Both the position numbers and the translations under genes were made by a program. From Roseibium litorale (lineage in GTDB: Bacteria; Pseudomonadota; Alphaproteobacteria; Rhizobiales; Stappiaceae), in assembly GCF_014842915.1 (NCBI RefSeq), contig NZ_JACYXI010000015.1:1-64000 (forward strand): a stretch of 64,000 bases of DNA. The letters are read 5' to 3'. Position 1 is the stretch's first letter. Each line of letters opens with the position of its first letter. The notes beneath the pieces were generated by a model. That model was not told the DNA's origin. It ran no database searches and worked only from the letters and a program-made list of their open reading frames with translations. Of this stretch, positions 1 through 42,286 are shown in pieces.

Positions 1-72
1 ATCTTTGGGAACAAGCTGATCGAGCGTCACAATCTCGAGCGCTGTCTGGGCGGGGCCGGGCTTCTTCAACAT
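1..72 (-). CDS. IS1182-family transposase, N-terminal 24 residues (partial)
   Basis: Reading from the ATG at 72-70 down to the window edge gives an open 24-codon frame beginning MLKKPGPAQTALEIVTLDQ and continuing LVPKD. From memory of the family, this is the usual opening of IS1182/DUF772-type DDE transposases, which continue HLLRKI. The rest lies to the left of the window, so it cannot be judged whether the gene is intact. There is no strong ribosome-binding site in front of the ATG. Confidence 0.72.
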   Translation of the reverse strand, partial: MLKKPGPAQTALEIVTLDQLVPKD

Positions 73-126
73 AAAGACACTGAATCAAAAACCACAAGCA
101 AATGCTACGGGTTTGTCAGCAGTCTG
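1..126 (-). mobile_element. 5' end of an IS1182-like insertion sequence (truncated by window edge)
   Basis: The element holds the start of a transposase gene on the minus strand and an outer end at 126. The terminal 16 bases (111-126, read on the minus strand CAGACTGCTGACAAAC) recur at both copies of the 41.6 kb repeat. The end abuts exactly the stem of the hairpin at 127-157. The IS1182 assignment rests on the transposase N-terminus; the other end lies outside the window. Confidence 0.75.
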
Positions 127-160
127 AAACCCCGCGCAGCCATGCAGCGCGGGGTTTTTG
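127..160 (-). terminator. Rho-independent terminator of the ABC importer operon, abutted by the IS
   Basis: Perfect 11-bp stem AAACCCCGCGC (127-137) and GCGCGGGGTTT (147-157). It lies 26 bp downstream of the permease stop on the minus strand. On that strand the U-run is cut to three bases because the IS begins right after the stem. Read on the plus strand it has five U's, so it may work in both directions. Confidence 0.8.
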
Positions 161-40716: not shown

Positions 40717-40843
40717 CTGCGCTGACGGGATGATGCGAAGCCTGTAGGAGGCCGCCAACGGCCCCCGCTGGATTTTCTGAGCGGCTTTGCCTATAAGCGT
40801 CCCAACTTTTCAAAAGACACATCCGCACGAGCCGAGAAGAGCC

Positions 40844-41578
40844 ATGGCAGGACATTCACAGTTCAAGAACATCATGCACCGCAAGGGCCGGCAGGACGCG
40901 ATCCGGTCGAAGATCTTTTCCAAGCTGTCGAAGGAAATCACCGTCGCAGCAAAGGTCGGTGGTCCGGATATCGACGGCAACCCGCGCCTGCGCCTTGCGG
41001 TTCAGAACGCCCGCGCCCAGTCTATGCCGAAGGACAACATCCAGCGTGCGATCAACAAGTCCCAGTCTGGTGACGACGACAACTATGAAGAAATCCGCTA
41101 TGAGGGCTATGGCCCCGCAGGCGTTGCCATTGTTGTTGAAGCTCTGACGGACAACCGCAACCGCTCTGCTTCCAACATCCGCTCCTACTTCACCAAGTGC
41201 GGCGGGTCATTGGGCGAAACCAACTCGGTTGCCTTCATGTTCGACCGGGTTGGCGAGATCACCTACAAGCCGGAAACCGGCGACGCGGATGCGGTCCTGG
41301 AAGCTGCCATCGAAGCTGGCGCGGATGATGTGCAGTCCGACGAAAACGGCCACACCATCTACACGGCCTTTGAAGACTTGAACGATGTTGCCAAAGGCCT
41401 GGAAGCTGCTTTTGGCGAAGCTGAGTCCGTCAAGATCATCTGGAAGCCGCAGAACCTGACGCCGGTCGATAACGAGAAGGCCCAGACGGTCATCAAGCTG
41501 CTCGACATGCTCGAAGACGACGATGACGTCCAGAACGTCTACGCCAACTGCGACATTGATGCGGAAGCTCTGGCTTGA
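40844..41578 (+). CDS. yebC: YebC/PmpR-family protein
   Basis: 244 aa from ATG 40844. Starts [19 protein letters not shown] and includes the conserved [19 protein letters not shown] and [18 protein letters not shown]. The family is annotated as a transcriptional regulator and more recently linked to translation of proline-rich stretches. Its terminator has been tripled by the element array at 41612. Confidence 0.95.
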
Positions 41579-41632
41579 GGCCGGATTTCTGACGCAAGGC
41601 TGAGTTAAGACAACCCCGGTTTTGCCGGGGTT

Positions 41633-41772
41633 CAGACTGCTGACAAACCTCTGAGGCCTATCGAAGAGGTTCAGATTCACGGAACGTCACAGATTCAAGT
41701 CGTGAACATATCGGAATCAAAACCCCTCAATTCTGGCAGCCGCCAAAAACCGAGGGGTTTGTAATCAATCTG
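41633..41772 (+). mobile_element. MITE-like element, copy 1
   Basis: 140 bp starting CAGACTGCTGACAAACC and ending TTTGTAATCAATCTG. No coding capacity. Contains an inner hairpin with AAACCCCTC and GAGGGGTTT arms (41720-41760 region). Confidence 0.8.
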
Positions 41773-41793
41773 AACCCCGGTTTTGCCGGGGTT

Positions 41794-41933
41794 CAGACTG
41801 CTGACAAACCTCTGAAGCCTATCGAAGAGGTTCAGATTCACGGAACGTCACAGATTCAAATCGTGAACATATCGGAATCAAAACCCCTCGATTCTGGCTG
41901 CCGCCAAAAACCGAGGGGTTTGTAATCAATCTG
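41794..41933 (+). mobile_element. MITE-like element, copy 2
   Basis: Same 140-bp sequence as copy 1 with four substitutions; flanked by terminator stems on both sides. Confidence 0.8.
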
Positions 41934-41966
41934 AACCCCGGTTTTGCCGGGGTTGTTTGTTTTTGA
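41934..41966 (+). terminator. yebC terminator, copy with intact U-run
   Basis: Third copy of the AACCCCGG / CCGGGGTT stem, the only one followed by a U-rich tract (GTTTGTTTTT). It is probably the original 3' part of the yebC terminator. Confidence 0.8.
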
Positions 41967-41974
41967 AGAGGGGA

Positions 41975-42286
41975 ATGGTGTTGGAAAGCCGGATTTTCGG
42001 ACTGACGCAGCTGGATGCCAAGACCTTGCCGGAGCGTGCTCTGAAGCTGGCAGAATAGGCGGGAGAAGTAGCCCAGGCCGTTCTGTCGGCAACGGGAGCC
42101 CCGGGTTCCGCCTACAAGGGGCTGAACCTTGAGGATGTGCGTGAAGAAGCAGCGGATGCCGCAATCGTTGCGATCAGCATTCTGGCCCAGACCTGTGACG
42201 ACGAGGCGATGTTCGATGCCGAGCTGCAGCGGTTGCTGTCAGAAAAATGCACCAAATGGGAAGCTGTTCTCAGTCGGCAGGCATAA
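41975..42286 (+). pseudogene. MazG-like nucleotide pyrophosphohydrolase, nonsense-mutated
   Basis: From ATG 41975 (GAGGGGA just upstream) one frame runs to TAA 42284-42286, 103 codons, broken once by TAG at 42056-42058. The residues around the stop read LPERALKLAE-stop-AGEVAQAVLSATGAP, where the family has an EExGE metal-binding motif, so a GAG to TAG change is the simplest reading. The later part (LEDVREEAADAAIVAISILA) is the second conserved helix of MazG-like NTP pyrophosphohydrolases. No downstream start with a ribosome-binding site restores the first motif. Confidence 0.78.

Follow-up and report, generated by a model that had tools for sequence, protein, structure and literature searches.

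We propose that the terminator of yebC in the window (the whole 64,000-nucleotide stretch of Roseibium litorale DNA analyzed here) has been entered twice by a mobile element that uses a hairpin as its target. We put the probability at about 0.85 that one account explains the locus as a whole: a MITE, moved by an IS1182-family transposase, takes a hairpin as its target and is joined at the 5′ feet of that hairpin, and two such insertions gave the array that now follows yebC. The genome sequences that we compared show an empty site in a relative, many whole-hairpin duplications, their centring on the hairpin dyad, a duplication length that follows the hairpin, and element ends shared with IS1182 elements; we infer movement in trans, recognition of a cruciform, joining at its 5′ feet, and the two insertions with their order. 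Hairpin targeting by IS1182-family elements is itself already known.

Results

An alternating array at the yebC terminator

The order T-E-T-E-T, in which stems (T) alternate with longer elements (E), had been proposed from the window alone, and it was borne out: three identical 21-bp copies of T (AACCCCGGTTTTGCCGGGGTT), at 161-bp spacing, have two 140-bp copies of E in between (Table 1). The span originally given, 41612-41956, is correct in its start and structure but 2 nt too long at its end, as the last T stops at 41954. E1 and E2 do differ at four sites (positions 23, 67, 97, and 106 of E), and the ends of E are, as described, imperfect inverted repeats, with 78% identity over 41 nt when the adjoining hairpin is counted in. 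The claim that only the last T has a U-run agrees with a consensus scan for intrinsic terminators over 41500-42100, in which T3 alone scored, although shuffled sequences average 0.8 such sites and the scan alone is therefore weak. Identification of the upstream gene as yebC was confirmed by Pfam, which placed the product of 40841-41575 in the YebC/TACO1 family (PF01709, 207.5 bits; PF20772, 110 bits).

Table 1 Features of the array and of the cut-off IS element in the window
Feature	Position	Strand	Remarks
IS left end	1..126	-	Left end of full IS1182-type element, cut by contig end; first 24 transposase residues
IS target hairpin	127..157	.	31 bp, target of that IS; matching copy flanks right IS end on contig C7
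yebC	40844..41578	+	TACO1/YebC family; gene whose terminator is the target
T1	41612..41632	+	21-bp yebC terminator hairpin (target duplication), no U-run
E1	41633..41772	+	140-bp putative MITE, CAGAC...ATCTG, four differences from E2
T2	41773..41793	+	Second hairpin copy, no U-run
E2	41794..41933	+	140-bp putative MITE, identical over 140 nt to dispersed copies L002-L005
T3	41934..41954	+	Third hairpin copy
Terminator tail	41955..41964	+	GTTTGTTTTT, native tail, present only after T3; also after the single hairpin of G044

The RNA fold of E2 has a predicted energy of -44.7 kcal/mol (z -4.5). The 15-nt end CAGACTGCTGACAAA, with at most 2 mismatches allowed, is found three times in the 64 kb against 0.12 expected, a count that 0 of 100 shuffles reached; the third match is the end of a cut-off IS at the very start of the window. 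Four Rfam matches within 41400-42200 were rejected, all of them being under their gathering scores (PyrR, 28 against 54; BSnc120, 25.7 and 17.3 against 114; sroD, 18.2 against 50), and were taken as chance resemblance of hairpins. Separately, the gene after T3 (41975-42286, plus strand) has an in-frame stop at 42056-42058 where the relative G044 has none, and so looks like a recent pseudogene; a Pfam search of both its pieces gave no match.

An empty site in a relative and other copies of E

Among the other 44 genomes of the genus, the nearest, G044 (YebC 98% identical), has an empty site after yebC, with a single T between the same flanks (151/160 and 111/120 identical positions). Its hairpin is AACCCCGGTTTTACCGGGGTT, followed by the same GTTTGTTTTT tail as in the window. 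The yebC gene was found in 45 of 45 genus genomes, and the 230 nt 3′ of it were inspected in 30, the window's own among them; E after yebC was seen in none of the 29 others inspected, 24 of which have, by eye, a CCCCGG...CCGGGG hairpin at this place.

The genome of the window holds seven copies of E, one of them damaged. The expectation that further copies would lie between stems held for four of the five dispersed ones, each with a complete terminator hairpin on both sides and each with a different hairpin: L002-L005 match E2 at 140/140 positions and sit in four different terminators, within whole-hairpin repeats of 20-24 bp. The fifth (L006) shows a gap of 14 nt close to its left end; the left side lacks a matching hairpin, and the right side adjoins a hairpin. 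With the G044 empty site and these copies in other hairpins, the supposition that T is the duplicated target holds, and it is true for the element family.

When E2 and the hairpins were searched for in the 45 genus genomes, nothing beyond matches of 22-39 bp was found outside this genome. Among 385 class genomes, the sole other match to E (72% over 89/140 nt) was in G301, from another family, where two E-like elements each lie between whole-hairpin repeats. Among 72,556 plasmids there was one match, in pPAN2 of Paracoccus pantotrophus (79.7% across all 140 nt), which has a GGCCGCC/GGCGGCC-type hairpin on both sides with unequal outer bases. E thus has the features of a MITE: a length of 140 bp, no transposase gene, a left end, CAGACTGCTGACAAACC, common to IS elements, and whole-hairpin repeats. 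Judged by its sequence, E is a transposase-less MITE of the hairpin-targeting branch of the IS1182 family, and it would be moved in trans by an IS1182-type transposase.

While examining flanks, we also saw further element types in the same genome that have the same left end and different interiors (GTCATCCCGG..., TTTCCCGGACG...); these are L107, L110, L113, L118, L121-L124, L126-L128, and others.

Partner IS elements

The complete genus genome G017 carries elements of about 1.53 kb with matching TCAGACTGCTGACAAACCC ends, which share the left end of E and encode a 456-aa IS1182-family transposase. This protein is of the IS1182-type DDE class by NF033551 (471 bits, cut-off 270) and by Pfam (DDE_Tnp_1_6 and DUF772). 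Each of the six IS copies of G017 lies between two copies of its hairpin, which differ by one mismatch in two cases. Inverted terminal repeats surround one transposase gene in such elements, the ends matching at 12-14 of 14 positions in the 35 repeat-bearing loci from other genera. No solved structure related by sequence to the transposase was found at E 0.1, and an AlphaFold model was set aside for its mean pLDDT of 53.

A full-length copy of this transposase was not found in the assembly that contains the window, which has only N-terminal pieces of 22-24 residues at contig ends. The window itself starts at the start of contig C6, inside an IS1182-type element. In this assembly, the hairpins that flank the IS match six left contig ends one-to-one to six right ones: the shared stretch is 22-31 bp in five pairs (with one mismatch in one) and 11 bp in the sixth. 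The 11-bp pair (contigs C10 and C15; L040 and L116) shares just the 5′ arm and loop, not the whole hairpin, which points either to a joint of another kind or to subsequent loss.

Hairpins that face inward and have T-rich tails lie immediately inside the IS ends. They were counted, without a random control, at 22 of 29 left ends and at 27 of 29 right ends, and may terminate transcription that comes in from outside. By eye, such terminator-like hairpins (for example in L145, L146, and L033) show paired changes between species. A Novosphingobium sp. MW5 contig (L219) encodes, next to a masked run, the same transposase as G017 (100% identity), indicating either recent transfer or contamination.

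Duplications are centred on hairpins and follow their length

The 16-nt end TCAGACTGCTGACAAA occurs at 111 places in 19 of the 45 genus genomes, and the reversed control pattern occurs at none. Among the 95 distinct ends in the loci fetched from the genus, 78 adjoin a hairpin (score at least 9), compared with 80 of 4000 control positions. A repeat of at least 12 nt was detected at 42 of the 95 ends, which include some pairs of ends from a single element. Its centre lies no more than 0.5 nt from the hairpin dyad in 31 of the 42 rows and is off by at least 1 nt in 11. The repeat of E2 was set by hand because the search had picked up the identity between the two E copies. At many of the 53 ends with no repeat, the element runs off the contig or the stretch.

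For other genera, 55 of 80 loci were used, after 19 truncated and six Brucella loci had been left out, and 35 of the 55 have a direct repeat of 16-28 bp with 0-1 mismatch. In a repeat-blind test, the strongest hairpin in each empty site of about 100 nt was picked by a contiguous-helix measure without use of the repeat; it was centred on the repeat in 34 of 35 cases, against a null expectation of 1.3% per site. Duplication length correlated with hairpin length (rho 0.66, p 1.9e-5), and in 19 of 34 loci the repeat extends exactly one pair beyond the G.C-bounded hairpin on each side; the other 15 depart from this. The contiguous-helix measure was adopted only after the RNAfold span had failed (14 of 35 centred within 0.5 nt; rho 0.39 for length) because interior loops let the helix run on into the flanking sequence.

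Of the 20 loci with no repeat, eight meet a contig end within 120 bp, one is masked, and 11 are mismatched between sides. In six of the mismatched loci both sides have a strong hairpin but not the same one, as recombination between copies would produce; three have a strong hairpin on one side only (in one of which the left end was not found), and two have weak hairpins only. Among five plasmid IS loci, that of Rhizobium binae has a 20-bp hairpin repeat and ISCfr1 a short repeat; two Enterococcus loci (about 40% identity) and one Sinorhizobium plasmid locus have no convincing hairpin repeat. At L183:2990-3060 of Mesorhizobium sophorae, we observed T-IS-T followed directly by a 13-nt element remnant (CAGACCGCTGACA) and by part of a third, T-like copy that has a U-run; this is probably another array, now decayed. 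A scan of all loci collected for intact tandem junctions returned only the window's own.

We also hand-picked 57 duplications from the genus, other-genera, and phylum loci, ranging from 16 to 32 bp. In this set the centre offset is 0 in 48 of 57, an upper figure because 16 mismatched genus rows were excluded (L025, L051, L052, L057, L059, L068, L070, L113, L114, L117, L119, L122, L134, L136, L138, and L142). A...T is the outer pair in 43, G+C makes up 89% of positions 2-7, positions 2-8 hold at most 0.75 bit, which is largely G+C content, and all 57 have an A-rich left or T-rich right flank (at least 3 of 6). From their A/T flanks and outer A...T, the targets resemble terminators, and an A:T pair is somewhat preferred at the foot.

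Two subfamilies within the IS1182 family

A family-model search of 150 phylum genomes gave any match in 83 and a match above the cut-off in 19; 30 loci were fetched, of which 18 were read. L230, L231, and L233 have CAGACTGCTGACAAA ends and hairpin repeats of 17-26 bp, L231 being apparently the same site as L161, and L234 has similar ends with unmatched hairpins. Nine of the 18 have a 4-bp duplication (GGCC, GGTC, and similar) and different ends, and the five others are other or unclear. ISCfr1 has a 4-bp duplication, or one of 6 bp with the ends set one base inward. One branch (100/96) in a tree of 51 transposases separates 40 rows that have hairpin-type ends from eight 4-bp rows; since the two sets were sampled differently, the tree shows two subfamilies, not the order of change.

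Discussion

We hypothesize that an IS1182-family DDE transposase of CAGACTGCTGACAAA-ended elements moves the non-autonomous E in trans, and that it would recognize its target, a rho-independent terminator, as a hairpin rather than by sequence. Each 3′ end of the element would be joined to one of the hairpin's two 5′ feet. The hairpin would most likely be extruded as a cruciform, where the feet would lie side by side whatever the stem length, and gap repair would then copy the whole hairpin onto both sides. DDE elements are generally taken to make a near-fixed target duplication, as the spacing at which their two active sites grip B-form DNA is set. A length of 16 to 32 bp that follows the hairpin implies that the target must be folded or very flexibly read. 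A folded target, whether cruciform or strand, is suggested because the length varies while the centre stays constant, which is hard for a fixed-stagger complex on linear DNA. The hairpin-centred repeats and the length correlation indicate that hairpin size sets the duplication length, and the simplest way to this rule would be for a hairpin or cruciform to be folded and joined at each of its 5′ feet. We hold it somewhat better than an even bet that this DDE clade uses extruded terminator cruciforms with 5′-foot joining, such that structure, not a fixed stagger, dictates duplication length.

A hairpin need not form if what the transposase recognizes, on linear DNA, is short inverted marks on both sides of the target at flexible spacing, each an A:T pair next to a G+C-rich block, and the outer A...T pairs, the G+C content of positions 2-7, and the A/T-rich flanks of the 57 duplications are what such marks would look like. 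Yet the centre stays on the dyad over the whole span of lengths, the low information at positions 2-8 is largely G+C content, and a DDE complex of fixed geometry would give a near-constant stagger, as in the 4-bp members; we consider reading of linear marks improbable. Nor does much speak for untargeted insertion of which only events in terminators survive, others being harmful. The yebC frame is intact and the native U-run is retained after the last hairpin copy, as survival would have it, but selection on location can neither fix the duplication edges at the hairpin feet nor couple their length to the hairpin, and the proportion of ends that adjoin a hairpin (78/95 against 80/4000 in controls) also counts against this explanation, to which we give hardly any weight.

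For the array itself, the best reading is that the yebC terminator received two insertions, one after the other. That the second went into a T, as the original prediction had it, is favoured, not proven. A single insertion could have given T-E-T, and unequal recombination or replication slippage the second E-T unit, E1 and E2 diverging later; tandem duplication directly gives two units that agree in orientation and register at a distance of 161 bp. Against this stand the complete identity of E2 to four dispersed copies, the four differences of E1, one of which it has in common only with the dispersed L006, and the identity of the three T copies. At the variant site shared by E1 and L006, the Paracoccus relative has the common base; this one site is thin evidence, which gene conversion could blur. 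Duplication in place is an unlikely, if still serious, alternative to a second insertion.

Stem-loop targets have been described for IS1272 and TnSha1 of staphylococci. As far as the cited portions of these papers go, IS1272 deletes its stem-loop target (Wan 2017, PMC5678879), and the targets of IS1272/TnSha1 are hairpins that include several terminators and that are deleted, not duplicated (Furi 2016, PMC4923244); both papers cite the Siguier 2015 review for palindromes as targets of some IS1182 members. The elements described here resemble IS1272 and TnSha1 in belonging by name to the IS1182 family and in having as target a stem-loop of any sequence, often a terminator. Unlike IS1272, which deletes or replaces the stem-loop without duplication, they duplicate the whole of it: we considered replacement of the IS1272 type and rejected it, with a whole hairpin on both sides at the window and L002-L005 and repeats in 35 of 55 IS loci. 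Wan 2017 draws attack at the 5′ foot as a hypothetical pathway b, with no example in the portion cited. A duplication that equals the stem-loop and is dyad-centred, as that pathway predicts, is what the centring in 34 of 35 loci and the G044 empty site display.

More widely, the cited portion of PMC12056078 has IS1182-related transposases acting on sequence or structure, with or without target duplication or deletion. The short-duplication members, such as ISPse1, for which a 4-bp duplication is listed in PMC3281130, also have a DDE transposase, and the phylum loci were found under the same NCBIfam model; they differ (phylum loci, ISCfr1, ISPse1) in their inverted repeats and in their short fixed duplications, as far as these are described. 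E is like bacterial MITEs, on the account in the available text of PMC10969869, in being short, in lacking a transposase gene, in sharing inverted ends with IS elements, and in having direct target repeats, and unlike them in that its repeats are whole terminator hairpins of varying length. In that text of the review, IS1182 and hairpin are absent and terminator occurs four times in other senses. In the literature searched, as far as its accessible text goes, variable whole-hairpin duplication, such a MITE, and an alternating array were unreported beyond the hypothetical pathway of Wan 2017; this statement excludes ISfinder and two Siguier reviews, where earlier notice is possible.

A duplication length that follows the hairpin is unusual among mobile DNA of such kind, and the loci appear to be real examples of the pathway drawn as hypothetical for IS1272 (in the cited portion of Wan 2017). 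As barcodes, the duplicated hairpins allow broken contig ends to be paired, and structure-guided transposition becomes directly testable, with natural targets ready-made. If the proposed mechanism is true, the element would rebuild the host terminator on each side, making insertion nearly cost-free, and re-entry at the same site would build alternating arrays. This suggests a route to persistence, in that the hairpin and native U-run are still downstream of the upstream gene after insertion.
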